Positions 4,574 through 23,687 of a DNA stretch of 26,901 nucleotides are shown here, piece by piece. Positions within the stretch are counted from its first letter, which is position 1. The number at the start of each line of letters is the position of its first letter. This DNA comes from a virus, in the IMG/VR virus record IMGVR_UViG_3300030090_001001, positions 1 through 26,901 of that record; one strand, 5' to 3'. The position numbers and the translations under genes were made by a program. Below the pieces are notes generated by a model. It did not search any database. It worked only from the letters and a program-made list of their open reading frames with translations, and had not been told where the DNA came from.

Positions 4574-4969
4574 TTAGCGCCTTGCTCTTATCTCTTCAAC
4601 CTGCGACTCAAGCTCAGATATTCGCTGTGCATACCACTGAAGTGTAAGCTCTTGTTGTTGATCAAACGGAGCACTACCTGACTCTACTTCTTCAATCAAC
4701 TTGTCAAGTTGAGTTTCTAGGTGACCTAATAACATAAATTGTTCGGCGTCCGCAGGTAATGACCCTAGCTCGCCTCTAGGCCAACGCACCCTAAAGTCAG
4801 AGTTCGACTCAACTTCGTTTTCCATCATCATTTGAGAGGTTTCAATGGTGTTGAGGCGCTCGACTATCCCGAAGTATGCCCATACGCCCAAGGCAACCCC
4901 TGCCACAATGGACAGGAGGTTACGCAGGGGCATCGTGAGTTCGGTATTATCGTTTAGTCGAGCGGGCAT
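4574..4969 (-). CDS. Single-pass membrane protein with coiled-coil C-terminus
   Basis: A 131-residue protein when started at the ATG at 4969 (AGAAGAA-type purine stretch upstream), overlapping the metallopeptidase gene by 23 bp. An in-frame ATG at 4933 would remove 12 residues. Residues about 14-36 (PLRNLLSIVAGVALGVWAYF) form the membrane segment; EVESNSDFRVRWPRGELG forms a polar link. Residues 80-131 are a coiled coil (LLGHLETQLDKLIEEVE, later YAQRISELESQVEEIRARR). The PLRNLLSIV block is familiar to me from uncharacterised membrane proteins of marine phages. With 4263-4559 it forms a pair of membrane coiled-coil proteins close to the holin-like gene, which suggests lysis or envelope functions. 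Confidence 0.65.
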   Translation of the reverse strand: MPARLNDNTELTMPLRNLLSIVAGVALGVWAYFGIVERLNTIETSQMMMENEVESNSDFRVRWPRGELGSLPADAEQFMLLGHLETQLDKLIEEVESGSAPFDQQQELTLQWYAQRISELESQVEEIRARR

Positions 4970-5753
4970 TGTTTCTTTGTTCTTCTATTTTTCTTTTTAA
5001 TAGACGAGCTAATTGCACTTTCGGCATTGCATTCAAGGCAAGGCTTACAACACCCAAGGGCGTTCTACGTTCGGCTCTACGCGATCTGTTGATTGGGTGA
5101 TTTTCGTATATAGGTTGCTCAAGCAACATGCCCACTATTGTTTTTAGGTGAGCGGGAACATCTTCTTCTGATAAGGGGGCGTCCGTTGCGTGGTTTCTTT
5201 GCAGGTACCTGACCCCTTCAGAGAATGCGTCAGCAAACGTCTGAAAATCTCGATATGGATATTGAAGAAAATTGGGGTTGCTTCGAAGTTCTTCTATTGC
5301 TCTTTGCCTTTGATCATAGAAAGCCTTGTCATCAAAAGGCGCTCTAAACTCTTTATGGTGACCAAACTCGTGAGCCAGTGTCTGTCTGGCTGAATCATAC
5401 TCATCAGAGAATAAAGACTCAGAACTCGAAGGATAGCTTTCCTTGTACATTACAATTTCACCCGGCTCGCCCGACACGGCATACCCCATTGCGCGGCTAC
5501 GAGTGTCTCGTTCTTGGCCGGACCCAAGTAGTGGTCCAAAATCCCTTGGATCGTCACGCCGGTATGCTCGGTATGGGTCTTCGGGCCTGTTATAACGAAA
5601 GTCCACCGGCACCGCATCTCCACCAAGTATAGCCTGCAAGCTATCTGCAAACGGAACTAAGTGTTCTGGCACACCAGAATAGAGCGAGCGCTCTCCTTGC
5701 TGGCGCCGTTGCTCGGGCCTATCTGGGCCTAAGTCGGTAATGCCGTTAGCCAT
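4947..5753 (-). CDS. HExxH metallopeptidase-like protein
   Basis: A 268-residue protein whose ATG is coupled to the holin-like gene by TAATG. Residues 124-133 read QTLAHEFGHH, a full HExxH zinc-peptidase motif (H128, E129, H132) at the end of a hydrophobic helix. E179 in ADAFSEGVRY is a good candidate for the third zinc ligand of a gluzincin-type site. The N-terminus is Arg/Asp/Pro-rich (RPEDPYRAYRRDDPR) and the C-terminus is basic (LLKRKIEEQRNNARSTKR), so it may bind nucleic acid or be packaged. There is no signal peptide or membrane segment. Possible roles are virion maturation protease, host-protein cleavage or cell-wall peptide hydrolysis. The motif is clear; the role is not. Confidence 0.75.
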   Translation of the reverse strand: MANGITDLGPDRPEQRRQQGERSLYSGVPEHLVPFADSLQAILGGDAVPVDFRYNRPEDPYRAYRRDDPRDFGPLLGSGQERDTRSRAMGYAVSGEPGEIVMYKESYPSSSESLFSDEYDSARQTLAHEFGHHKEFRAPFDDKAFYDQRQRAIEELRSNPNFLQYPYRDFQTFADAFSEGVRYLQRNHATDAPLSEEDVPAHLKTIVGMLLEQPIYENHPINRSRRAERRTPLGVVSLALNAMPKVQLARLLKRKIEEQRNNARSTKR

Positions 5754-5986: not shown

Positions 5987-6395
5987 TGTTGTTGTCCTCG
6001 GTTGCGTCTTCAATTAAAAGTAAAAATTTTTCTTCGTCTTGTACAATTTCCCAAAACTCGTTGAATGCCTTCTTGCTGCTCCATACAGCAAGCCTGCCAT
6101 CCTCTGTCTCACCTCTGTCTTTACCGGGGGCGATGCACCCCTCAAGCTCATTGGCGTAGTTAGCAGCATGAAACAACAGTCTGTCTCGTCCTTCTACAAT
6201 AATTTCAAACGTGGGGTAGTCGCCACGATGGTAGTAGTCTTTCTGGCAAGGGTGCAGCCCTTCGGGAATTAGTGTCTGTGAATTTTCGATACTCCAAAAG
6301 CTTACACCGTCACTGTCGTTGTATAGCCTTCCCCACACTGCGTCACCCTTTTCTATCTCTCTGCGTAGATGCCATACCGGCGCGTTTACAGCCAT
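5979..6395 (-). CDS. DUF5675-type protein, candidate cell-wall enzyme
   Basis: A 138-residue protein coupled to the upstream 1225-residue gene by TGATG. It has the pattern of the DUF5675 family: VWGRLY, FWSIEN, TLIPEGLHPC, a central strand (PTFEIIVEGRDRLLFHAANY) and GCIAPG, then a helix (SSKKAFNEFWEIV). H76 in FHAAN and C87 in GCI are placed like the catalytic His and Cys of YkuD L,D-transpeptidases (HGxx...GCxR); this comparison is my inference. The next gene in the unit is the holin-like one, which makes a lysis or peptidoglycan role plausible. No classical endolysin domain is visible in the window. Confidence 0.75.
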   Translation of the reverse strand: MAVNAPVWHLRREIEKGDAVWGRLYNDSDGVSFWSIENSQTLIPEGLHPCQKDYYHRGDYPTFEIIVEGRDRLLFHAANYANELEGCIAPGKDRGETEDGRLAVWSSKKAFNEFWEIVQDEEKFLLLIEDATEDNNNE

Positions 6396-9300
6396 CAGTC
6401 TAAGATGTTGTCGATTGCACGAAACGCATTAACACCAAGCCTGCGTCCACGCTCTGTAATTCTATCAAGTTCATACCTAAGGCGTTCCTGAGAAATGGTT
6501 TCGCTTTCAAGCAACCTGTTTCTTTCCTGTCTTAACTCGTTCATGTCTGCAATAAGAGTTTTTGTGTACCGAGCAACTAGGATTTCGTCAGCGTAGTCTT
6601 CCCTGTAATTGTCAAGATCTTCGCGACTTACACCAGCCCTTTCCATGCGTCTTAACTCGTCAGCTTTTTCTTTGGCTTGTCGTAATATGTTATAAGAGGT
6701 GTACTCAATGCCTCCAATATCATACTGTTGGGTATTAAACCGCGCAGTTCCTATTATTTGAGAAAAGCGTTCATCGGGCTCCATTCGAGACAACGGGGTT
6801 CGGCCATCTGCACTTGCTCCAACCGCGTCTACTAATTGCATGGCCCTGCGACCAGTGGTCCCGCCAAGGCTTTGAATAAACGATTCGACTCTAAGCGGAG
6901 ATATTCCAACACCAGTTATATCTTTTATGGTTTGACCAATGCTTTCAGCAAGAACAGGAGTTGTTCTTGTGGTCTGGCGCTCACTTGGTCTTTCTTGAAG
7001 GTACTCTGGAACAATTGGTTTCCATCTAAATAAATCTTTGTTTACTGCTTGCTCAAGAAATGGTTGAGCAGCAGCCGGAATGGGTACAGTTCCTGTAATA
7101 TTTGCTTTCCCAAAGTCCATAATAGTCTGTGCTATCTGACCATCAACGCCCATGCCGCGAGGCGCCGCAGAAGATGCAAGCGATCTAACAGACTCAGGTA
7201 CAGTATCTGGAGAAGTGCTAACCCTCATTGCCATTGCGTCGAGCACTCTTTCGGGCAAAGACGCAAAGACGTAACCCAACTCAAACGGTTTAGGAATACG
7301 ATGGAACCCACCGTCTGGCTTTGGAATTAACCAAAAAAGATTTCTTTCCCACAGAGGCCTGTCCCAATATTCTGGGTTATCCTTGTTCGTCATCCACAAA
7401 GCAACGGTAGGTGCAGTGATTGCGGCACCCATGGTTGTAAGGGAGCCCGGCACAGCTATTGCTTTGGATTTTGTTGGGTCACCCCTAAACAATCTTCCGA
7501 GCTTAGCCCAGCCTTGTAACTGAGCGTTTAAAAACGGTGTAGCCTTAGCAAAGTTTTTTACTCCCTTCCATCCACCCCTTCGACCAAATGGCAATGTTAC
7601 ATCCTGAGAGGCCCATATTGGGGTGTTCGCAAGATCGTAACCCGGCAGTTTATTTTGAGCGCCTCGTGTAAGGGCTCTGTATTGTGCTACGCGAGGAGCG
7701 TTTTCTGCTGACATCCCAATAAGCCGAAGTGTATTGGTAAGAGCGTTTCCGGCTTTAGCTGGTCTTATAATGCCCGGATTCGTGCCGCGCATGAGGCGTT
7801 GAATTATTTTACCGGCATCACTAGCACTTCTGCTCCCAAACGCAACTCCTGCCGTAACGCCGCCTTCTTTTACAAACTCGTTCCAAAGATTTTTGTCCAT
7901 GCCTAGCATGTCACCAAGGCCACCAAGCACGTTGGCTACAGGCGCTGACACCCGACGAACAAAATTATCCCCTTCTGATGACAGCTCTCCGCGAGCCGCA
8001 ATCCCAAGGCCTTGAACTATTTCAGCGCCCGGTCTTGCAAGCGTTCCTATTCCTAATCCGGCTGCTCCAAATTGTAACGCTCGCTCCAGTCGCTCCTCTG
8101 GCGTATCAGCCGTGGTAGCGCCATAAGCCGCACCAGTTGCGCCACCAACAACAGGCTCTATTGCACCACGAGCACCTCGTTGCCCCACCCTTTGAATAGC
8201 AAACATGGGCCAGTCCCGAAGAATCGACAGCACCGCAAAGTCCGGCACCATGGTAATCAAATTTCTTTTTAGATTGGCGGTTTTTGTAAGGATTTCCATG
8301 GTTATGCCTTGAGCTTCTTGGGTTTGACCCTTCAAGACATTAAATAAATCTGTGTCTTCAATAAGAAAGTTTTTTGTTTTGCCTTCATGGATAAACGAAT
8401 AAATGTGGTCTCTGGTTACTTTTCTGCCCTTACTGTCTACTAATCTGCCCGCAGACAAAGCATTGTCTATGGTTTTTTGAGTCATGGGCTGACCGGATGC
8501 AGTCTTCAATTCTCTGGCAATACCGTCAAGAAGTCCTAGTTCGTCGCCTGCCTCCATGACATCGCTCAAGGTTTTGCCAAGCCTTTGACGAGCTACGTCA
8601 TCGTATGTTCTGTAAGTCTGGAAGGCGATAGCGCTGACGGGCGACTCTACTTTGTCGCTTCTTCTGACACCTTCTTGTAGTTCGTCAACACCTTTTTGAG
8701 GCCTGAGCTTAGTAACAATTCCTTTGGATTTAGCAATGCTCTCTTCTATTGACTGCTCACTCAACATAGGAACATAAAAATCTTCAATTGGGTCTGCGCC
8801 CCGCGACGGCCTAACCCTTGAAGACTCTAAAATATATTCATATTCTTGTTTAGAAATAATTCCAGCTTGATGTCGTCGCGCAAGATTTTTTCTTGCAAAA
8901 TCTCGCAACTCATTTGTGGCCCGAACCAACTCAGGGTTGGCCATAATTTCATCATATTTTATTTGCAATTCAGCGTCATCATATCCTGTCCCAGTTTTTT
9001 TGTTTTTGGCTAGTCGAGATGTTTTGCCAAGACTATTCTGTCGCAACACCCAATCTCTGCGAATAAGAGCCGCATCACTAATCTCATCTAGGTTGTTTCT
9101 GTTCCTAAGCAGCCAAGGTCTCATGTTTTGAGCCAGATCTAACTCTGCGGCTTTTTGGGAGCCAAGCATTTTAGCAACTTGCTCGTCAATGTCCTGACCG
9201 GCGCGACGGCCAACCCTGTACCCCAGCCGACTAAGCGGCGAGTACTCATCAAAAAGACCTGCGTAAAATCTTTGCCGGGGATTTAATAATGTTTTTCCGT

Positions 9301-10072
9301 CGCCTGATCCAATAAAGCCCATAATAGAAGACCTTAAGCGACCAAGTGTGGTTGACCCGTCCCTTACCTCTCCCGGCTTGTAAGAGTTGACGCCCTTAAA
9401 AGCGCCTTCGTCTATATCCATCTTTGGCGCTCTTCTGGCACCCGAACCCAAAAACGCACCACCAAGGGCAGATCCTGCTAATTCTAAGGCAAGCTCTTGG
9501 CCAAAACCTGTGCCTCTGTCTTGTGACCACGAAGCGGCTCGCGCAAACGAAAGCGGAGACTCTGCGGCTACGACGCCTGCGGCGCTACGCAGCTTAGAAC
9601 CTTGGGTTGCACGGCCAATACTTGCCAGTGCTCGTGCAGGTAAAACCGCTCTACCTAATCCAAGGGTTCCAATTGTCGTACCAACTTCACCACCTATACG
9701 ACCAATGACTTCTCCTGCTTTACCAGCTTTTCCTTCTGGAGTAAAAAGATTTTCTGCAATATCTTCTGCGCGTTCGGAAACATCTTCCAAGCCTCTACCA
9801 AGACTGCTTATGCCGGGAAGGTCTCCACGTTGGAGAAGCCATCCTGTCCCTTCCCCGAGGCTTGTAACGGCCCTTGTTGCGCCAAGCCCTAACCCTTCCG
9901 CAAACTCGCCAGTGGCACCTAGAAAGCCTTCGCCCTCTTCTTCCTCTTCGGGCTCTGGCGTAGGCGCAGTTGTCTGCACAGACGGACGCTGGCCCCGTTC
10001 TGCTCGCGACAAAGCTTCTTGATGCGACAGGCCTTGGTTTCGCCAAGCAAGATAAATTTCTATCTCATCCAT
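6395..10072 (-). CDS. Very large probable DNA-ejection protein with LPD38-like region
   Basis: A 1225-residue protein. It starts with a short helix (EIYLAWRNQGLSHQEALSRA) and an acidic linker. Residues about 50-220 are Gly/Ala-rich and amphipathic, and could insert in membranes. Residues about 250-560 are helical with RVGRRAGQDIDEQVAKMLG-like segments. Residues about 600-680 (NLITMVPDFAVLSILRDWPM) resemble the large polyvalent protein-associated domain LPD38. Residues about 840-865 (PFLNAQLQGWAKLGRLF) continue the same family feel. The C-terminus, from about 1120, is a charged coiled coil. LPD domains occur in giant mobile-element and phage proteins with packaged or injected enzymes. It is the last of five adjacent large Gly-rich genes after the nozzle, as in podoviruses with internal virion proteins. 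No catalytic site was found. Confidence 0.7.
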   Translation of the reverse strand: MDEIEIYLAWRNQGLSHQEALSRAERGQRPSVQTTAPTPEPEEEEEGEGFLGATGEFAEGLGLGATRAVTSLGEGTGWLLQRGDLPGISSLGRGLEDVSERAEDIAENLFTPEGKAGKAGEVIGRIGGEVGTTIGTLGLGRAVLPARALASIGRATQGSKLRSAAGVVAAESPLSFARAASWSQDRGTGFGQELALELAGSALGGAFLGSGARRAPKMDIDEGAFKGVNSYKPGEVRDGSTTLGRLRSSIMGFIGSGDGKTLLNPRQRFYAGLFDEYSPLSRLGYRVGRRAGQDIDEQVAKMLGSQKAAELDLAQNMRPWLLRNRNNLDEISDAALIRRDWVLRQNSLGKTSRLAKNKKTGTGYDDAELQIKYDEIMANPELVRATNELRDFARKNLARRHQAGIISKQEYEYILESSRVRPSRGADPIEDFYVPMLSEQSIEESIAKSKGIVTKLRPQKGVDELQEGVRRSDKVESPVSAIAFQTYRTYDDVARQRLGKTLSDVMEAGDELGLLDGIARELKTASGQPMTQKTIDNALSAGRLVDSKGRKVTRDHIYSFIHEGKTKNFLIEDTDLFNVLKGQTQEAQGITMEILTKTANLKRNLITMVPDFAVLSILRDWPMFAIQRVGQRGARGAIEPVVGGATGAAYGATTADTPEERLERALQFGAAGLGIGTLARPGAEIVQGLGIAARGELSSEGDNFVRRVSAPVANVLGGLGDMLGMDKNLWNEFVKEGGVTAGVAFGSRSASDAGKIIQRLMRGTNPGIIRPAKAGNALTNTLRLIGMSAENAPRVAQYRALTRGAQNKLPGYDLANTPIWASQDVTLPFGRRGGWKGVKNFAKATPFLNAQLQGWAKLGRLFRGDPTKSKAIAVPGSLTTMGAAITAPTVALWMTNKDNPEYWDRPLWERNLFWLIPKPDGGFHRIPKPFELGYVFASLPERVLDAMAMRVSTSPDTVPESVRSLASSAAPRGMGVDGQIAQTIMDFGKANITGTVPIPAAAQPFLEQAVNKDLFRWKPIVPEYLQERPSERQTTRTTPVLAESIGQTIKDITGVGISPLRVESFIQSLGGTTGRRAMQLVDAVGASADGRTPLSRMEPDERFSQIIGTARFNTQQYDIGGIEYTSYNILRQAKEKADELRRMERAGVSREDLDNYREDYADEILVARYTKTLIADMNELRQERNRLLESETISQERLRYELDRITERGRRLGVNAFRAIDNILD

Positions 10073-10077
10073 TTATT

Positions 10078-12093
10078 TTACGGCTGCGCCATCATTGTGC
10101 GCGTTCGTGATCCGGGGCTCATAATAAGGCCACCCTCTGCTCTTGACTCAAAAAGATCAACTCCGCTTTCCTGTATCATTTCTTGGAGAGCGGCTTCGGC
10201 CTCTGGTTCGTCCATATCCATTAGAACTGTTGCTCGGATTAGGTCCTTCATCTTCTGCATTTCCTCGCTGCTAAAGACTGACGCAGCGTTATCTATTGCA
10301 GTATAAGCAGCCATTAGTCGGGCTTCATCATTACCCACCCGCGCCCGATCCCTTGCTATTGTTAGCGCGGTTTCTAAAATAGATTCTTTATGACCTAAAA
10401 TTGCACTGCCCGTAGCTGGGGTTGGGGCCCTGCCCGTAATTTGTGCATCTTGCAAGGCTCTTATTCGTTGAATGTCTGAAAGAATTGACATTGCTTGTGC
10501 AGAAGTGATTTCGGAAGCTACAGAAGCATCGGCTTGAGCCTTAAGCTTTGCAAGATTCGCAGCTTCAAGTGCTTCGTCTGCTGTAATGACACCGGCTTCA
10601 ACAGACCTTAGAAGGTCTCTTTCAATTTCTCGCATGCCTGCAATGCGGCTTAGTCTACCAATCTCAAGATCGCCTGCACGGGTTAAGATTCTTTCACGCC
10701 TTTCTTCTTGAGCTTCTCGTAGTTCTCTTTGACGGGTAATGCCTCGCGCTAAGGCGCCACCAATCCCACCTTCTTGGAACCTACCGCTTGCGATAGCGCC
10801 AGCTACAATAGCCGCAAGATCATTAGCTTGATCCTGAGCGTCTTGTTCTGGATCATAAAGATTTGCTAAGCGTTGTTCTTGGGCCAGCATGGCTGCTTCA
10901 AGCTCAGTACGATCTGTACCAAGGTTTCTAAGCCTTTCGCGATCCCTCTGCTCGATGATTCGCGCTCGTTCCCGTGCGTTTGTAGCCTGTTCAAGTTGCT
11001 TTGCATAATATGCTTCTTGATCAGAAGTAAGTCCGGGGCCTTCTTCAATTTGCTCCGCAATCTGACGCATAAGGCGTCTTTCTAATTCACCTAGCTCGTC
11101 TAAGGGCTGCTCTTCTGGCTCGCCTCCCGTTGGTGAGTAGGCATCAGTGAGGTCCGATCTGCCACGAAAAAGGTCTTGCGCTGTCGGGGGACCAAAGGCA
11201 GGACCTCTATCCATCCCCGGAAGCATGCCCATTCTTCCGTAGGCTCTCATTTCAGCTAACAATACATCTTGTGGGTCAAGTTCTAGCTCTGATTCTTGCC
11301 CTTGTGCTTCTAGCCTATCAAGCGCTTGGGAATCTTCGAGCGAGCCACCTAGTCCGGGGAGTCCTTGCTCTCGTCTTTCTTGTGCCTCTTGAAAAAGCTC
11401 TCTTAGGACGCGCTCTTCTTCTTGTTCACCAATCCTTGATGGTATCGCTGAAACTCTTGTTGTTTCGGACAATGGAGTTCCCACATCTTGTCCATGAACA
11501 CCTGACCTTAAAAGTTCTTCTACGTCTTGGTACCGAGAAGGAGAGAAGTAGGGATCGGACTCAGCCTCGGCCATTGCCAGCATTCTTTCAATGTAAGACA
11601 AAGGCTCTTCTTGAAGATCACTATATCCTTGAGCCTGACCTACAAGACCGTTAGCGCTACTACCGTTTGAATAGCCGACGATACCGCCTTCTGCCATGGC
11701 ACCCATGGGCATCTGCATAGGCATACCACCTTGTGGGGGCATACCACCTTGTGGGGGCATACCGCCTTGCATCATTGGGGGGCCTTGCATCATTGATGGG
11801 TCCATTGGTGGACCGCCTTGTGCCAAGGCCATGGCGGCAGGCATGGGCTGTGTCTGTTGCGGTTGTGAAATACTGCCAATGCCTTGCAAAGCCCTGCTAA
11901 TAACTTGATCCTTAACGGTGCCTTGCGGCATTTGATTTTGTCGGCTTTGGTACGCTGCGCGATCTTTTTCGCGCCTTAGTATTTCAGCCAAGGTCAAATG
12001 AGGGGGGAATTCATTAGGAGCATTGGCCTCTTGCATTAACCTATCGTCAGAAACGCCTTCTAATTCTTTTGCTAACTGTAAAATATTAGGCAT
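10078..12093 (-). CDS. Probable internal virion (ejection) protein, Met/Gln/Gly-rich
   Basis: A 671-residue protein coupled to the preceding gene by TAATG. Residues 15-46 (SDDRLMQEANAP, then PPHLTLAEILRREKDR) are a module I recognise from uncharacterised marine phage proteins located among internal virion genes. Residues 75-133 are low complexity (MMQGPPMMQGGMPPQGG and similar). They are followed by AEGGIVGY (134-141), with a near copy, AEGGLIM, starting the last 20 residues. Residues about 240-560 are long charged helices (QEQRLANLYDPEQDAQDQA, later ITRQRELREAQEERRERIL), probably coiled coil. The layout suits a protein held in the capsid and ejected with DNA. Function is inferred from context only. 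Confidence 0.65.
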   Translation of the reverse strand: MPNILQLAKELEGVSDDRLMQEANAPNEFPPHLTLAEILRREKDRAAYQSRQNQMPQGTVKDQVISRALQGIGSISQPQQTQPMPAAMALAQGGPPMDPSMMQGPPMMQGGMPPQGGMPPQGGMPMQMPMGAMAEGGIVGYSNGSSANGLVGQAQGYSDLQEEPLSYIERMLAMAEAESDPYFSPSRYQDVEELLRSGVHGQDVGTPLSETTRVSAIPSRIGEQEEERVLRELFQEAQERREQGLPGLGGSLEDSQALDRLEAQGQESELELDPQDVLLAEMRAYGRMGMLPGMDRGPAFGPPTAQDLFRGRSDLTDAYSPTGGEPEEQPLDELGELERRLMRQIAEQIEEGPGLTSDQEAYYAKQLEQATNARERARIIEQRDRERLRNLGTDRTELEAAMLAQEQRLANLYDPEQDAQDQANDLAAIVAGAIASGRFQEGGIGGALARGITRQRELREAQEERRERILTRAGDLEIGRLSRIAGMREIERDLLRSVEAGVITADEALEAANLAKLKAQADASVASEITSAQAMSILSDIQRIRALQDAQITGRAPTPATGSAILGHKESILETALTIARDRARVGNDEARLMAAYTAIDNAASVFSSEEMQKMKDLIRATVLMDMDEPEAEAALQEMIQESGVDLFESRAEGGLIMSPGSRTRTMMAQP
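11720..11755. repeat. 18-bp tandem repeat, two exact copies
   Basis: Two identical 18-bp units (GGCATACCACCTTGTGGG) lie at 11720-11737 and 11738-11755, followed by a diverging third unit. They encode PPQGGM repeats within the Met/Gly/Pro-rich segment of the 671-residue protein, so the copy number may vary by slippage. Confidence 0.85.
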
Positions 12094-13376
12094 TATGTTT
12101 TCTTGTTTCTATTTTGATTGTATAAGTTCATGCCTGCGACTGCTGTGCTAAGGTACCTTTGTCCGGCTGACGGCCCCGCAGTTGCCGTGTTTCTTTGTTG
12201 CACAGTAGTAGATTGGTACGGAAGCTGCCCCATAGCGCCTAACGCAAAGCCAATGTTCTGACGTTCTTGGTTCATGCGGTTCTGGAAATCTTGGTACCCA
12301 ATGTCAAGCGACTGCTGTTGCATCTGACGGGCACGCTGTCCTGCGTCCATCATCTGACCAAAGCGACCAAACGCCATTTGCTGTTGCTGTCCGCCAAGCG
12401 AAGCCAAACCGCCCCCAACATTGTATAAGCCCTGAGATGCAGCCATGCGACGAGCTTGGTCAGCAGCAAACGCTTGTTGTGCGTTTTCAAACGCTCTTTG
12501 TTGGCCCATGCCATAGATGTCACCAATCTGTTGACTGGTACCCATGCGGATCGCTTGCTCGCCAAGACCGTGACGCATGCTGCCAAAAGCGCCTGCTCTT
12601 CCGGCATCACTACCAAGACGTTGCATTTGCCTTTGTGCTTCGCGCCTAACCTCTCTTGCTTGGGGATCAACCACACCAGACATGTAACTAGACATATAAG
12701 GATCTAAAGATCCGGGCTGACTTTGGTAGCCAACGCCGCCGTAGCCACCCATGGCGCCCATCATTGCCTGTTGCGCCGCGCCCATCTCTGCGGGGCCACC
12801 ACTCATGCCGTACTGGTAAATGCCGCGCATAGCCGATGTTTCAGGTCGGCTAAACCCTGCAAGTCGCTGCCCCCCATATCCTTGATAAGGCCGCATGCTT
12901 TCATTGACAATGCGATCTGTGAGTTGTGCATACGCTGGAGCAACTTCAGGTGACACAAAACTTTCTGTTACCTGTTGCGTGGCCTCGTCGATCTCGCCGC
13001 CCTCTTGGTAGCCGGGAAGCTTGCCGCCACCGGCATATCCGCGCTCAATACCAAACTCAGCTATTTCTTCTTCGGTAAGCATTGGCGCCGTCTCTGCTGT
13101 GTACAACGGAGGCAGTGGACGCCTAGGACGGTTCATCAAAGAAATAGCGCGAAGGGCCTCATCTCTCGCCCTGCGCTCTTGAGCAGACTCAAGCACCTTA
13201 CGGTCGCCACGACTCATGTAGTTTGGGTCCATGATTGTATTCAAGTAAGCTAGAATAGCCCTAAGACCTCTTTTGGGTGGCGCAGGAACATCCATCCGAT
13301 CCCTAGGACGGGAGACTGTGCCTTGCACTCCCGGTGGCATTTTCAATAGCTTATCAAGCGATTCGTCTCGTGTCAT
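12093..13376 (-). CDS. Probable internal virion protein, Gln/Met/Gly-rich
   Basis: A 427-residue protein started at the ATG at 13376, directly after the stop of the upstream gene; the in-frame TTG at 13391 is rejected. Residues 114-130 read YAGGGKLPGYQEGGEID, the Gly-Gly motif shared with its neighbours. Residues about 170-260 hold a segment (SYMSGVVDPQAREVRREAQR, then MQRLGSDAGRAGAFGSMRH) that I recognise from phage virion proteins of many groups. There helices with Arg and Gln lead into an AGAFGSxR block. Residues about 270-400 are Gln/Ala/Met-rich helices. No signal peptide or enzyme motif is seen. It belongs to the ejection-protein series by position and composition. Confidence 0.65.
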   Translation of the reverse strand: MTRDESLDKLLKMPPGVQGTVSRPRDRMDVPAPPKRGLRAILAYLNTIMDPNYMSRGDRKVLESAQERRARDEALRAISLMNRPRRPLPPLYTAETAPMLTEEEIAEFGIERGYAGGGKLPGYQEGGEIDEATQQVTESFVSPEVAPAYAQLTDRIVNESMRPYQGYGGQRLAGFSRPETSAMRGIYQYGMSGGPAEMGAAQQAMMGAMGGYGGVGYQSQPGSLDPYMSSYMSGVVDPQAREVRREAQRQMQRLGSDAGRAGAFGSMRHGLGEQAIRMGTSQQIGDIYGMGQQRAFENAQQAFAADQARRMAASQGLYNVGGGLASLGGQQQQMAFGRFGQMMDAGQRARQMQQQSLDIGYQDFQNRMNQERQNIGFALGAMGQLPYQSTTVQQRNTATAGPSAGQRYLSTAVAGMNLYNQNRNKKT

Positions 13377-13377
13377 T

Positions 13378-15840
13378 TTAAGCAATCTCAACGTTCAAGG
13401 GCCCGTCTGTTCTTGACCCAGCAATATCAATACTTCTTGCAAGTTTTTTTATTCGCCTAGCGCCTTCTTCTGTGCTGCCGCCGCCAACGTTCCGTACCTG
13501 ACTAGCAGTTAAGACGTATTCGTTTGGTGCAATTGCAGCGCCAACGCGAACAGGCCCACCCTTAGCTAGGTTTTGACGAAACTCCATCTCTACAAGACGA
13601 TCCATATCATCTTGTTGTTCTAAGGCAGTATTGCCCTCAGAAGACCTAAGCTCTGCTTCCAGATCCATAATAAATTCTTTACCAAAAATACTTTCTGCTA
13701 GTGCAATAATATCTTGCGACACTGCACTGTTTGGATTGCGAATCGCCTGCTTTAAAGCGTCAAGCATCTGCATGCTTTCTGAGGACACCTCTGATATTTC
13801 TGGCTTCATTATAGCTACGCGGTCATCAACAGCTCCGCTGCTTTCCATGGTGCCGTCTTCAAAAGGTTCAATAAAACCCTCAAACGGAATGTCTTGCGGA
13901 GTCATGCCGCCATCAGCGCGACCCTTTAAAGCTTTTGTAGACCTAGGGCCCCTACGACTTTTTAACCCCCCTAGGCCTCCTTTTGATTTTTCGGAAGCTT
14001 TTCTTTTGCTGACTGGAGCAACATCATCTGACCTGCGTTGTTGCGGCGGAGGCAGCATGCGACCAACTGGCATTTCCTGCATGGGCTGCGGCATAAAGTC
14101 AGGTCCTCCCATAACTGGCTGTGGCATTTGCCGGTCGGCGGAAACCATTCGCCGTGGCGCTTCTATCCTTGGTCGAGAAAACTTATCTCCGGGGTCAACA
14201 ATTGGAGGGGGTGGTCCCATCTGCGGTGGACCTTGCTGCAAGAAAGGCATGTTCGGAACCTGTAGCGGAGCCTGTGGCGCCGCAGGTCCACGGAACATAG
14301 AAATTGGATCTTGTTGTTGTCCAACAAACACAGAGAATGGGTCTTGGCCTAAGAAGGTCTCTGGCTGCCCTCTTTCTAGCGCTTGTTCAGACATTAACCC
14401 GGCACGATACCATTCTGGAATATCCGTTATTTCGTGCGCCTGAGGCCTGAACTGTCCCGTAGGTGGACCAACAACAACCGGCGCCCTTCCCCCCGGCATA
14501 GAGGTTGGACTATCGTCATAGGGGCTTTCTCCTTCAATCATTGTGCCGTCAATACTAACTATGTCGTCTGAGGGGGTGCCCTTTGCAATAGCTCGTATGT
14601 TCTCTATTTCAGCCGATTCGTCTGCGTCCCCAAACTCATCTTGAGTTTCAAACCTTTCTGCCATTCTTTTTTGTTCTTCGGTCATGCGGTCACCGTAACG
14701 GTAACGACCCTCTTCGTAAGAAGTGCCCCTTCCTTCCTGCTCTCCGTCCCCTGTTGTCCGCTCCTCTGTTCCAGAAAGATCACCGCCGCCCTCGCTTGAG
14801 CCTCGCTCTCTGCGACCTTCACGCGAAGTCACCTCTCTTTCAAATTCTTCAAAGCGATCTTCAACCGCAGATGTTTCTTCGCGCTGTTCTTCCGATGGAA
14901 GTTCTTCTTCTGGTCCCGTAGGACGATCTATGTTTAGGTCAGGCCGACGCTCTATGACGGGAGTAGTATACTCAGGTATTGGGCGTCTGGGCCTAACGGG
15001 CTGTGGCATAAAGTCAGGCACACCCATTTCGTACTCTTCGTCCATTACACCACCGTGTCTTCTGCTAGGAATCTCGGCGTATTGCTGTGCTCGACGATCA
15101 GTAACATAACTGGGCATAACACGCCGGATGGGCTCACCTGTTGTACTTCTTGCCGGACCCATCCTACCTAAACTGTCCCTACCTACACTACCTAATAGCT
15201 CACCCAACAGTGGGTAACCAATTGCCATCATAGCAGGGTGGTTTGCATACTTTAAAATTTTATCTAAGGTGCTCAGGTTTTCGTCACCTGATTCTCCTGA
15301 AATATTACTTAACGTATCCTTAAGGCTACCATCTCGAATTGCCTGCTCAAGTCTTGCAAAGCCACCGCCATTAAAGCTTTCTATTTTAGCGTATCCTTGC
15401 GCCTTCGGCTCCTCTTCTTCTGCACCTGAAGGACTGGTGGCACGGCTCGACATAGCGCCCCTCAATGATGAAAGCTTGTTCAATGATGAAACCTGATCTG
15501 GTTCCAGCCAATCAAAGTTATCGTACATACCCGTTTTCGTGGCAGCGCCTGACTCTTCCTTATCGTCATCCCCATTTAATCTCTTGCCTAGTTCGCCAGA
15601 AACTATTGCTGTTCCTGCTGCATATGGCTGGTGAGGGCCCGGAATATAAGAAGCTACGGTAGCAACTTTATTTAACCCACGAAAAAATCCACCCCATCCA
15701 TATCCGGGTACATACATTCCACCACCCGCCATGGGAATGGTGTAAATACCACCACCAGCCATTTGCGCGAGGTGTGGCATTGTGTAGATACCGCCGCCAG
15801 CATAACCCATTTGCTCAGGAAAATTTGCTCGACTCATCAT
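13378..15840 (-). CDS. Probable ejection protein with tape-measure-like C-terminal motif
   Basis: An 820-residue protein with two adjacent ATGs at its start. The first 50 residues carry three spaced AGGG[IM]Y units (14-17, 28-31, 38-41), then a hydrophobic Gly-rich stretch (GWGGFFRGLNKVATVASYI). The middle, about 250-620, is Pro/Glu/Arg-rich and probably disordered (PQMGPPPPIVDPGDK; PDFMPQP occurs twice). Further Gly-Gly units occur at FNGGGFARLEQAI, RHGGVMDEEY, ADGGMTPQD and AKGGPVR. Residues 772-789 (PNEYVLTASQVRNVGGGS) match the PxEYVxxAxxV...GxGS block found near the C-terminus of many tape-measure proteins. In this podovirus context an ejected virion protein is the best reading. Confidence 0.65.
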   Translation of the reverse strand: MMSRANFPEQMGYAGGGIYTMPHLAQMAGGGIYTIPMAGGGMYVPGYGWGGFFRGLNKVATVASYIPGPHQPYAAGTAIVSGELGKRLNGDDDKEESGAATKTGMYDNFDWLEPDQVSSLNKLSSLRGAMSSRATSPSGAEEEEPKAQGYAKIESFNGGGFARLEQAIRDGSLKDTLSNISGESGDENLSTLDKILKYANHPAMMAIGYPLLGELLGSVGRDSLGRMGPARSTTGEPIRRVMPSYVTDRRAQQYAEIPSRRHGGVMDEEYEMGVPDFMPQPVRPRRPIPEYTTPVIERRPDLNIDRPTGPEEELPSEEQREETSAVEDRFEEFEREVTSREGRRERGSSEGGGDLSGTEERTTGDGEQEGRGTSYEEGRYRYGDRMTEEQKRMAERFETQDEFGDADESAEIENIRAIAKGTPSDDIVSIDGTMIEGESPYDDSPTSMPGGRAPVVVGPPTGQFRPQAHEITDIPEWYRAGLMSEQALERGQPETFLGQDPFSVFVGQQQDPISMFRGPAAPQAPLQVPNMPFLQQGPPQMGPPPPIVDPGDKFSRPRIEAPRRMVSADRQMPQPVMGGPDFMPQPMQEMPVGRMLPPPQQRRSDDVAPVSKRKASEKSKGGLGGLKSRRGPRSTKALKGRADGGMTPQDIPFEGFIEPFEDGTMESSGAVDDRVAIMKPEISEVSSESMQMLDALKQAIRNPNSAVSQDIIALAESIFGKEFIMDLEAELRSSEGNTALEQQDDMDRLVEMEFRQNLAKGGPVRVGAAIAPNEYVLTASQVRNVGGGSTEEGARRIKKLARSIDIAGSRTDGPLNVEIA

Positions 15841-20453: not shown

Positions 20454-20686
20454 TAGTGGTCCGTTCTCCTTGCGAGTCTTTCTTTGATGTTTGCTGTCTC
20501 TGCTTCAACCGATGCAAGGCGCTCGCCATGCGTATCTACTTTTGTTCCGATACGGTTTACGGTGCGTTCAATTTGAGCAAGAGATTGTTTTGCGCCGTTC
20601 AAACCTGCCTTTACTCCGCCATAAGCGGCCCCTGCTGCGGCTGGTATAGCAAGTAAAGACATTAAAGTAGTCACATCACTCTCCAT
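20453..20686 (-). CDS. Small protein with hydrophobic N-terminus and coiled coil
   Basis: A 77-residue protein from the ATG at 20686 (MESDVTTLMS), with GAGG shortly upstream; the longer reading from a TTG at 20722 is less likely. Residues 6-34 are Ala/Gly-rich (LMSLLAIPAAAGAAYGGVKA) and may form a membrane-associated helix. Residues 35-73 form a coiled coil (IERTVNRIGTKVDTHGERLA, then EAETANIKERLARR). The start overlaps the tail-fibre gene by 11 bp. It resembles spanin- or holin-like small phage proteins in layout, or a trimeric fibre partner. The family is not recognised. Confidence 0.65.
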   Translation of the reverse strand: MESDVTTLMSLLAIPAAAGAAYGGVKAGLNGAKQSLAQIERTVNRIGTKVDTHGERLASVEAETANIKERLARRTDH

Positions 20687-23600
20687 CGTCCTCGTCTTCT
20701 GCCGGTTTTTCTGGCTCAACAATTACGCGACCGTTGTTATCCGTCCAATTAGTATCCATCATGTGCTCGTCTTGACGCTCTGCTACAACAAGCCACGATA
20801 CCGTGTCAGTGCAGTCGTTGTCTTGTGCGGTAATCGTGAGCGTCGAGCCTGAGACAGAGCCACGGACCTGAGTCCATCCATCTTCGTTCTGGACCCACAC
20901 CTGCGGATCACGGCAAAGTAGCTCCCATGTGCCATCGGTCATGGTTGCGGCTGCGTCCAAGTCTACTGTAGCTGTGCCTCCTGACAGTTGCACGGAGCCG
21001 CGATACATCAGATCGGCTCTTGGTCCCTCAATAAATGAGTGAACCAGATCGTGCGTGTCCTTCATTGAGTCTAGAGGATGGTCGATTCTAAACGAACCAG
21101 AACCTTTAGACAGGGCACCAACGACACTCATATTAGTGCCTGTGACCTCAAACTGTTTAGAACCGCCAGCAAAAAACCGCATGACGTTAGCAGAGCCTTC
21201 AACAATGTATGTATCGCCGCCGTTGTCGAGATACAGGTTGTTGCCTGACGGGATCATAACACCATCAGCTTGTATCTGAAAACGACTCGTCCCACCGCAG
21301 AAGAACCGCATAGTGTCGCCACTAGACTCATGGATGTAGGTGTTGCTACCTCCGTCTAAATAAATCTTACTTGTTGCTGGAACGCTAAGATCAGCACCAA
21401 GAGTTGTTGCTCCTGACACATCCAGCGTGCCGTTTAGGTCAACGGCTGTCGCGTTAAGCTCAATCTCGTCGGTAGCGTTAATATCTAAAACGGTAGCCGA
21501 AGGTGCATTGATGTACTGAGACGCATCGTTAAACTGCAAAGCCATTGTGCTATTAAGCAACAAGCCCGTGTCTGCAACATGAGTCAAGGTTACATCTTGA
21601 TCATCACCAAACGCTGCAACAGCACCGTCTGCTAAATACAGGTCACTAAACTCTAGTGACGTTGTACCCAAAGCAGCGCCATCTGACGCATCGGGCACAA
21701 ACGCTGTGGTAGCCGTGATCGTTGTTCCCTGAATGGTGCTAGACCCTGTAATCGCACCGTCTACTTGTAGCGTAGACGCCATATCTACAGCACCATCAAT
21801 GTCTACCACATCTAAGTTTGCAGTACCCTCAACATCTATAGCGCCTGAAATATCTAATGTAGCCGCATCTAGTTCACCCGTAATAGTAAGATTTCTTATT
21901 CCTGTGTAATCTTTATTCGAGTCTAGAACGACTGCCTTAGAAGCTATAGCTGTTCCAACTGCCGTTGAGCCTAGGTCTAGATAATTAATTTCCCCGACTA
22001 CAACCGTGGCACCATCTAGTATGTTAAGCTCAGCCGCAGTAGAGCTTACGGCGGTTCCATTAATAGACAGCGCATCTGTCTCTAGGGTTCCGTCAATGTC
22101 AGCATCTCCAGAAACATCAAGGGAGCCAGCGTCAAGTTCTCCTGTAAGCGTAACATTTCTAAAGCTTGCAATGTCCTTGTTGCTATCTACTACAACCGCT
22201 TTGGAAGCTGCTACAGTTCCAGCGGTTATGCCGTCAAGCATTTCTAGCTCGGCTTCTGTTAACTCTGCGCCTGAGCCTAGCGTAAGCGTCCCTGTTACCG
22301 TGAGGTTGTCATTAACCGTTACTTCTGATGTGGTGTGACCTATTGAGACTGGAACGCCTGACGTAGCGGTTCCTATGGTAATTCCGTTTGAGGTATTGGA
22401 ATTATCTATGTTCAGTGTAGATGTAGAGTCCAGTGAAATATTAGAACCGTCTACAACTAGGGTTCCATCTACATCTGTATTGTCTAGGTTGGTGGTCCCA
22501 TCTACATCTAAATCGCCGTTAAAGTCAGCGTTGCCACCAAGGGTCAATGTCGTAGCCATGTCAACCGCACCGTCAATATCTACTACATCTAGGTTGGTTG
22601 TACCGTCTACGTCTAGGTCACCATTAAAATCTGCATTACCAGCTAAGGTTAGCGTAGACGCCATGTCAACTGCGCCGTCAATGTCTACGACATCAAGATT
22701 TGTGGTTCCGTCTACATCTAAGTCGCCTGCTAGGTCAATGCCCGCAGCGCCTGCTAAAACTAGATCGTCAGTAGACGTATCCCAAAGCATGTACGCACTA
22801 GCGGTGTCTCCAAAAAACTTTACGTCATACCCGGTGTCATCTACACCAACTGTAACGGTCGAGTCAATTTGCACTGCGCCGTCAATGTCTACTGCGTCTA
22901 GGTTGGTAGTTCCGTCTACATCCAGATCCCCATTAAGATCAGCATTGCCAGCTACGGTAATGGTGCCAGACACATCCAGTGTGCCGTTTAAATCTATTGC
23001 GGTAGCGTTAAGCTCAATTTCGTCTGTTGCGTTAATGTCCAGTATTGCATTTGAAGGAGCATTGATGTATTGACTGGCATCATTAAACTGGATTGCCATT
23101 GTAGAGTTAAGTAGCAATCCGGTATCTGCAACATGTGTTAGCGTTACGTCGGTGTCTGCACCAAAGCCAAGAACAGCAGCGTCTGACTTGAGGGTAAGGT
23201 CGTCGCCAACAATTGCATCAGTCCCGACCGTTAGGCTTGTCATTAGCTCTAAGTCAGCAAACGCATCTAGTACCGCAGCACCTGATCCCGCACCATCAGT
23301 AAAGACTGCTGCAACCTTTCCGTTGCCAATAGTGATGTTGGCGCCAGAGCCTTGGCTAATAATAATATTGTATGGCCCGGAAGACCCTGAGTCGCCAGTA
23401 GCATTCTCAATAAACCACAGTTTATTAACTGTGTTCGGGGCAATCGTAATTGTGCAATCAGAGTCTAAGTCGCCCGTATACTTAAGAAACATTGCGCGGC
23501 CTTCATCGGCGGCGCCATCTGCTATCGTCGTAGTATGAGTATTGGCGTTAGTGGTAATTGCTTCTGTACCAGAGCCAAACGCATCTGCAATCAACTCAAG

Positions 23601-23687
23601 GTTAGTGTTGGTTGACGCTCCCCATGTGCCTTCTTCGTCGCCAGTAGCAATTTCCTTTAAACGAAGATTGTTAACGTATGTAGCCAT
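20676..23687 (-). CDS. Tail fibre / receptor-binding protein
   Basis: A 1003-residue protein coupled to the upstream gene by TAATG. Residues 1-150 (TYVNNLRLKEIATGDEEGTW, then GASTNTNLELIADAF and QGSGANITIGNGK) are the N-terminal virion-attachment module common in marine phage fibres. Residues about 180-780 are Asp/Thr/Ala/Leu-rich beta repeats with DLDVDGTTN units, AELNILDG-type turns and two long duplicated blocks, as expected of a trimeric beta-helical shaft. Residues about 860-920 (GSGSFRIDHPLDSM, LVHSFIEGPRADLMYRG) form a C-terminal module also known from ocean phages. The acidic end is EKPAEDEDDGE. It should trimerise and bind the host surface; the receptor is unknown. Confidence 0.88.
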   Translation of the reverse strand: MATYVNNLRLKEIATGDEEGTWGASTNTNLELIADAFGSGTEAITTNANTHTTTIADGAADEGRAMFLKYTGDLDSDCTITIAPNTVNKLWFIENATGDSGSSGPYNIIISQGSGANITIGNGKVAAVFTDGAGSGAAVLDAFADLELMTSLTVGTDAIVGDDLTLKSDAAVLGFGADTDVTLTHVADTGLLLNSTMAIQFNDASQYINAPSNAILDINATDEIELNATAIDLNGTLDVSGTITVAGNADLNGDLDVDGTTNLDAVDIDGAVQIDSTVTVGVDDTGYDVKFFGDTASAYMLWDTSTDDLVLAGAAGIDLAGDLDVDGTTNLDVVDIDGAVDMASTLTLAGNADFNGDLDVDGTTNLDVVDIDGAVDMATTLTLGGNADFNGDLDVDGTTNLDNTDVDGTLVVDGSNISLDSTSTLNIDNSNTSNGITIGTATSGVPVSIGHTTSEVTVNDNLTVTGTLTLGSGAELTEAELEMLDGITAGTVAASKAVVVDSNKDIASFRNVTLTGELDAGSLDVSGDADIDGTLETDALSINGTAVSSTAAELNILDGATVVVGEINYLDLGSTAVGTAIASKAVVLDSNKDYTGIRNLTITGELDAATLDISGAIDVEGTANLDVVDIDGAVDMASTLQVDGAITGSSTIQGTTITATTAFVPDASDGAALGTTSLEFSDLYLADGAVAAFGDDQDVTLTHVADTGLLLNSTMALQFNDASQYINAPSATVLDINATDEIELNATAVDLNGTLDVSGATTLGADLSVPATSKIYLDGGSNTYIHESSGDTMRFFCGGTSRFQIQADGVMIPSGNNLYLDNGGDTYIVEGSANVMRFFAGGSKQFEVTGTNMSVVGALSKGSGSFRIDHPLDSMKDTHDLVHSFIEGPRADLMYRGSVQLSGGTATVDLDAAATMTDGTWELLCRDPQVWVQNEDGWTQVRGSVSGSTLTITAQDNDCTDTVSWLVVAERQDEHMMDTNWTDNNGRVIVEPEKPAEDEDDGE
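21415..21597. repeat. 183-bp dispersed duplication in the fibre gene, copy A
   Basis: Matches 22969-23151 in the same orientation with equal length and no gaps seen by eye. Differences are mainly at third codon positions. It encodes TLTHVADTGLLLNSTMA, then QFNDASQYINAPS and the INATDEIELNATA block. Confidence 0.85.
22480..22960. repeat. 105-bp tandem protein-coding repeats in the fibre gene
   Basis: Units beginning TCTACATCTAA-like start at 22501, 22606 and 22711, an exact 105-bp period (35 codons). A fourth starts at 22915 after an extra segment of 99 bp. Each encodes a version of GDLDVDGTTNLDVVDIDGAV. The copies differ largely at synonymous sites. Confidence 0.85.
22969..23151. repeat. 183-bp dispersed duplication in the fibre gene, copy B
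   Basis: Partner of 21415-21597. The encoded protein differs at only a few residues (for example MAIQF against MALQF), while the DNA differs at many third positions. This suggests either selection on the protein or an old duplication. Confidence 0.85.

Follow-up and report, generated by a model that had tools for sequence, protein, structure and literature searches.

A conserved Gly-Gly motif in the pilot-protein block of marine, probably short-tailed phages, with a C-terminal module very probably shared with many tape measure proteins

Three adjacent proteins encoded on a viral contig of 26.9 kb (IMG/VR record IMGVR_UViG_3300030090_001001, positions 1 to 26,901; this whole stretch is called the window below) carry recurrent Gly-Gly units. 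Such units might be docking segments, plain hinges, cleavage sites or a by-product of glycine-rich composition, and the question is which of these explanations fits the locus. The tail and ejection block is on the minus strand. Its order is two SU10-type adaptors, a phrog_3287 virion structural protein, a fibre-like protein, p482, p820, p432, p671 and an LPD38 protein. The genes on which the question turns are as follows.

13378..15840, minus strand: p820, the protein at the 820 slot of the pilot block; slot kept in 52/52 loci and tape-measure-type module in 49/52 (alignments)
12093..13391, minus strand: p432, DNA ejection protein family phrog_4287 (E = 1.9e-14)
10078..12093, minus strand: p671, third in the block; 9/10 proteins at the D1 slot of related loci carry the motif
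6395..10072, minus strand: large LPD38 protein at the end of the pilot block (PF18857, E = 8e-34); motif not enriched
4947..5753, minus strand: HExxH protein, accessory and not tied to the motif (gene content of relatives)

The phrog_4287 profile matched p432 over residues 138-421, and the protein is 427 aa long if its start is the Met at residue 6. Full-length p432 and p820 gave no match in tblastn against phages, and neither did the p432 profile against the PDB. From synteny we infer that p820 and p671 are present in the virion, and gene order together with the phrog_4287 match suggests that they are ejected. The phage is probably short-tailed, judging from its gene content, because the close relative IMG/VR 3300045135 (41.8 kb) adds TerL, portal and a head protein upstream, and the head and tail proteins scanned, both in the window and in this relative, include no tail-tube family. 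In the same block, the fibre-like protein (window 20676-23687, minus strand, 1003 aa) contains degenerate repeats, e.g. GDLDVDGTTNLDVVDIDGAVDMASTLTLAGNADF.

All of the units named in the sequence-only reading were found at the places it gave: YAGGG at residue 13, AGGG[IM]Y at 28 and in the region of 38, and AKGGPVR at 759 in p820; YAGGG at 119 in p432; and AEGG[IL] at 134 and 652 in p671. In all three proteins (820, 432 and 671 aa), the motif takes approximately the form G-[YMF]-[AQ]-x-G-G-[IMV]-[VYI]. Plain Gly-Gly counts were only weakly above those of composition shuffles (p = 0.06 for p820, 0.19 for p432 and 0.007 for p671). The pattern [AGSYQME][ADEGKNQ]GG[IVLMFYP] occurred at six sites in p820 and five in p671 (p = 0.0005 each), and at none in p432 or in the other window proteins tested. 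When two of the proteins were used to train a flank profile, the conserved sites in the third scored among the highest of its Gly-Gly sites, with held-out p values of 0.001 for p820, 0.014 for p671 and 0.10 (not significant) for p432. Statistical support for the motif is weakest in p432. Isolated Gly-Gly units had no match in Pfam. A search of NCBIfam gave no meaningful match. At the LPD38 slot (window 6395-10072, minus strand), at least one pattern-fitting Gly-Gly site was seen in 9/9 ORFs examined, with overall enrichment absent. The units of the three proteins that were followed in the relatives are listed here.

15682..15807, minus strand: p820 residues 12-53, Gly-Gly units in tandem at the N-terminus; kept 5/5, predicted disordered (pLDDT 31-40)
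15040..15063, minus strand: p820 unit RRHGGVM, residues 260-267; kept 5/5, flank identity 49%, five codon pairs
13891..13920, minus strand: p820 unit RADGGMTPQD, residues 641-650; kept 5/5
12984..13040, minus strand: p432 paired units GYAGGGKLPGYQEGGEID, residues 118-136; both kept 5/5, motif in 10/10 M-slot proteins
11668..11703, minus strand: p671 unit MAEGGIVGY, residues 131-142; kept 5/5, with further YSDGGRIPGYQDGG units after it in relatives
10750..10782, minus strand: p671 unit GRFQEGGIGG, residues 438-448; kept 5/5
10081..10146, minus strand: p671 C-terminal unit RAEGGLI..QP, residues 650-671; kept 5/5, flanks 11% identical

The sequence-only reading had named positions that are not conserved as evidence against itself. 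Position proved decisive, and it is conserved: none of the five close relatives has lost the motif-type dyads of p820, p432 and p671, whereas most of the Gly-Gly pairs that lie in low-complexity stretches have disappeared. At the kept sites, the glycine codons differ synonymously between relatives. The clearest retention was that of the p671 C-terminal unit, which persists despite the 11% identity around it. The copy number of the tandem units at the p820 N-terminus varies from three to seven in relatives.

We also surveyed a larger set of loci. The p432-family profile retrieved 80 loci; two more were used, and 54 remained as non-redundant at 85%. As the search pattern had been composed after the window clade was viewed, this wider set is the fairer test. 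In the 820 slot, i.e. the gene directly upstream of the phrog_4287 gene, the motif was present in 52/52 proteins, with 168 sites against 26.4 +/- 5.1 in shuffled sequences. In the other slots of the 54 loci, the motif was no commoner than in shuffles. Among ten related loci, sites numbered 60 vs 7.5 shuffled in slot U, 14 vs 5.2 in slot M and 26 vs 3.8 in slot D1; all other ORFs together had 4 sites vs 10.4. In the window clade and the intermediates, the motif was found in 10/10 proteins of the 820 slot, 10/10 of the M slot and 9/10 of the D1 slot. In the wider group, the third protein begins with M..[KR]RPMFRKGGxVxxGIMxG, which is 63% identical, compared with 3-36% in 20-residue blocks elsewhere. 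Within the pelagiphage-like loci L053-L130, a near-invariant FRKGG peptide precedes a very divergent body of the D1-slot protein, and a GG lies within residues 1-30 in 43/44 of them. The Gly-Gly observation was thereby confirmed, and it is stronger than was visible from the window sequence alone. The 820-slot protein is characterised by the motif, and in close and intermediate relatives the next two proteins have it as well.

The last motif unit of p820 opens a longer conserved segment, a module of about 50 residues with the form GG..NEYVLTA..V..GGG.

13411..13566, minus strand: p820 C-terminal module AKGGPVRVGAAIAPNEYVLTASQVRNVGGG..., residues 759-810; very probably common to tape measure proteins

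The p820 C-terminus, LAKGGPVRVGAAIAPNEYVLTASQVRNVGGGSTEEGARRIKKLA, aligns with the same-slot C-termini of pelagiphage HTVC027P, phage 023Pt_psg01 and the wider set. These C-termini in turn match tape measure proteins of actinophages at 1e-5 to 3e-5. They also match, at 9e-7, the protein that DSL-LC04 has in this slot, and its annotation is again tape measure protein. PHROG tape-measure families were matched by 40/52 module sequences. The window module alone had a weak tape-measure match in PHROGs (E = 0.11, none at E <= 0.01), and the claim of a shared module therefore rests on the relatives. In hhalign comparisons with a hand-picked set of tape measure segments, the window clade scored 82% and the wider set 97.5%, and 0/200 column shuffles reached either value. 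The best of 177,635 PDB sequences was the tape measure protein of mycobacteriophage Douge (E = 0.002, two copies). Lambda gpH has the same motif order, FATGG..GEFVFTKEATSRIGVG..YATGGYVG. The spacer TSDSIPA-LS, which in most members leads from GG to GE[FY]V, was not found in the window clade, where it is shortened to VRVGAAIAP; lambda gpH likewise lacks the TSDSIPA spacer. Taken from these alignments, it is very probable that p820 and many tape measure proteins have the module in common.

The tape measure module is already implicit in PHROG families, and neither a name for it nor its typical strings were found in the literature searched. What is new is the module together with the scattered motif within the ejection block of phages that are probably short-tailed. 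A motif in every tape measure protein was considered and rejected, as those of HK97, P2 and Mu are without it. The same module, in the form GG..DDIPA.LSEGEFV, was also seen in HMO-2011-type phages, at the N-terminus of a protein encoded near the portal gene (HMO-2011 gp49, L029 38772-41060; CRP-1 gp49, L042 5941-8088).

AlphaFold2 was used to model both the module and the whole of p820. From 52 sequences, the module was predicted as helix, GG loop, extended NEYVLT, helix, GGG and helix (mean pLDDT 76). Foldseek searches with this model gave no usable match in the PDB (E >= 4.5) and weak matches in BFVD, mostly to uncultured-phage proteins (best E 0.06). The full p820 model had a mean pLDDT of 48, which makes it unsuitable for a fold search. 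In this model, residues 1-159, including the N-terminal units, are predicted to be disordered, and one helical domain stands out.

13561..13782, minus strand: predicted helical domain of p820, residues 687-760 (AlphaFold2, block pLDDT mostly 76-97); ends at GG 761-762

In p820, the modelled copies thus either lie in chain predicted to be disordered or cap a helix at the border of a domain. The placement at domain borders proposed from the sequence holds for one unit in the p820 models; some others appear as linear motifs in a disordered chain. p820 does not fit the picture of a tail-length ruler, a long helical protein encoded beside tail-tube and tail-assembly chaperone genes: it is mostly predicted disordered, and there was no tail-tube family among the proteins scanned.

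The units make up a short linear motif that evolution has kept in the pilot block across a large group of phages that are marine and probably short-tailed. As to their function, we give roughly an even chance to the proposal that they act as uncut docking/turn segments of a pilot-protein complex with a presumed partner. The units would stay uncut, and the loosely folded pilot proteins would use their Gly-Gly turns to dock at several places on one multi-copy partner that they share at the exit vertex, which might be the portal, the core or the tail nozzle. The same turns would allow the chain to pass out by way of the narrow tail channel, one protein after another in order. By analogy with tape measure proteins, p820 may be the channel-side protein of the set. 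Docking loops have a precedent in T7, where loops of gp6.7 bridge the portal, gp14 and gp15 (PMC11784390). This proposal draws on the positional conservation with synonymous change, the slot-specific enrichment, the variable tandem copies, the FRKGG peptide and the shared module. The predicted disorder around the N-terminal units of p820 and the GG 761-762 at the end of the helical domain also point to it. The motif is not essential to ejection as such, because the pilot proteins of Lederberg, HTVC034P and T7 and the tape measure proteins of HK97, P2 and Mu are without it. A broader version, in which long- and short-tailed phages use a common Gly-Gly docking code by which their ejected proteins bind one class of partner, either at the exit vertex or in the envelope of the host, is tentative and seems less likely. 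If it were true, both delivery systems would have a homologous trigger or anchor part.

The alternative that fares best is that the units are pure hinges, i.e. flexible turns between helices and disorder that serve passage through the tail channel and have no partner. Glycine favours turns, and the models place GG 761-762 at a helix end and GGG 786-788 between two helices, as hinges would be. However, a plain hinge would need neither conserved flanks nor slot specificity, and both were observed: the residues around Gly-Gly are conserved ([YMF][AQ]x before, [IMV][VY] after), the unit is specific to certain slots, and the 20-residue peptide around one unit is the most conserved part of a fast-evolving protein. 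The pure hinge is plausible but less probable than docking.

Maturation cuts at Gly-Gly, made by the HExxH protein or by another protease, are improbable. Cutting would suit units that sit near ends and domain borders, and lambda gpH, a carrier of the module, undergoes cleavage as the tail assembles (PMC3224144). The accessory 268-aa HExxH protein is zincin-like (TLAHEFGHH, FADAFSEGV) and had no match in Pfam or PHROG. The sequence-only reading regarded it as a possible protease and suggested looking for co-variation of its gene with the units. The gene does not travel with the motif. It was located in the window and in one other contig only (L024 3315-4115), and it was absent from the records of six relatives. 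In L002, its two flanking genes abut directly with a clean junction. In L005 and L006, it is missing from the corresponding interval between g138 and g86; an unrelated 266-aa gene, without a counterpart at this place in the window, lies between the homologues of these two genes (L005 9634-10434, L006 17361-18161). No HExxH ORF was seen in 51/54 motif-bearing loci within the limited flanks scanned, which is not proof of absence. Processing is also at odds with the conservation on both flanks of Gly-Gly, and with mature virions that keep residues past the module: gpH 818-842 in lambda (PMC10721106) and the last tape measure residues, 1658-1699, in Douge (PMC13033339). As the lambda cut site was given no position (PMC3224144), a host protease might still be a cutter. 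A C39-type double-glycine leader was rejected, as both flanks are conserved and the units are internal and C-terminal. The earlier interpretation was thus partly supported: docking and hinge roles are both plausible, and processing by the HExxH protein was left unsupported.

Chance or low-complexity drift, whereby the composition of proteins with 9-13% Gly would yield Gly-Gly, agrees with the non-significant plain counts in p820 and p432, but it has a negligible probability and was rejected in view of the slot-specific enrichment, the positions kept with synonymous change, the shared module and the motif in every 820-slot protein of the larger locus set.

The pilot proteins of many marine short-tailed phages, which the virion has to hold and trigger, are too divergent to be compared easily, and the motif and module offer a sequence handle by which they can be found. 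Motif and module also single out individual residues to mutate in laboratory phages that are well known. Sequence evidence suggests that podoviral ejection proteins and tape measure proteins have a part in common, and the shared module would link two phage routes for DNA across the cell envelope.

Among known systems, the pilot blocks of HTVC027P, 023Pt_psg01 and DSL-LC04 resemble that of the window in their four-gene order and in the C-terminal module of their first protein. They differ in that the second protein is without the motif, and in this set an N-terminal FRxGG peptide is found on the third protein in two marine phages. The pelagiphages Lederberg and HTVC034P, reached through the LPD38 match, lack the motif in their ejection proteins. 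The capsid targeting sequence of T4 is likewise a short peptide common to several unrelated ejected internal proteins; it is N-terminal and is removed by the prohead protease. Unlike it, the Gly-Gly units are multiple and internal, with no sign of removal. T7 stores several proteins at the vertex and ejects them before its DNA, and short loops of gp6.7 bridge its portal and core (PMC11784390). However, the T7 ejection proteins and gp6.7/gp7.3 have different sequences, and motif and module were not found in T7. Tape measure proteins are long tail-length rulers, whereas p820 is mostly predicted disordered, its ejection block has no tail-tube genes in the relative examined, and its module lacks the TSDSIPA spacer. 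Nevertheless, p820 resembles the tape measure proteins that carry the module (lambda gpH 733-790, N15 gp16, Tsukamurella TIN2, Gordonia Orchid and Douge gp16) in the motif order xAxGG[VF].., (IPA.LS) [GN]E[FY]V..[TA]..[AV]..G, to which lambda adds YATGGYVG.
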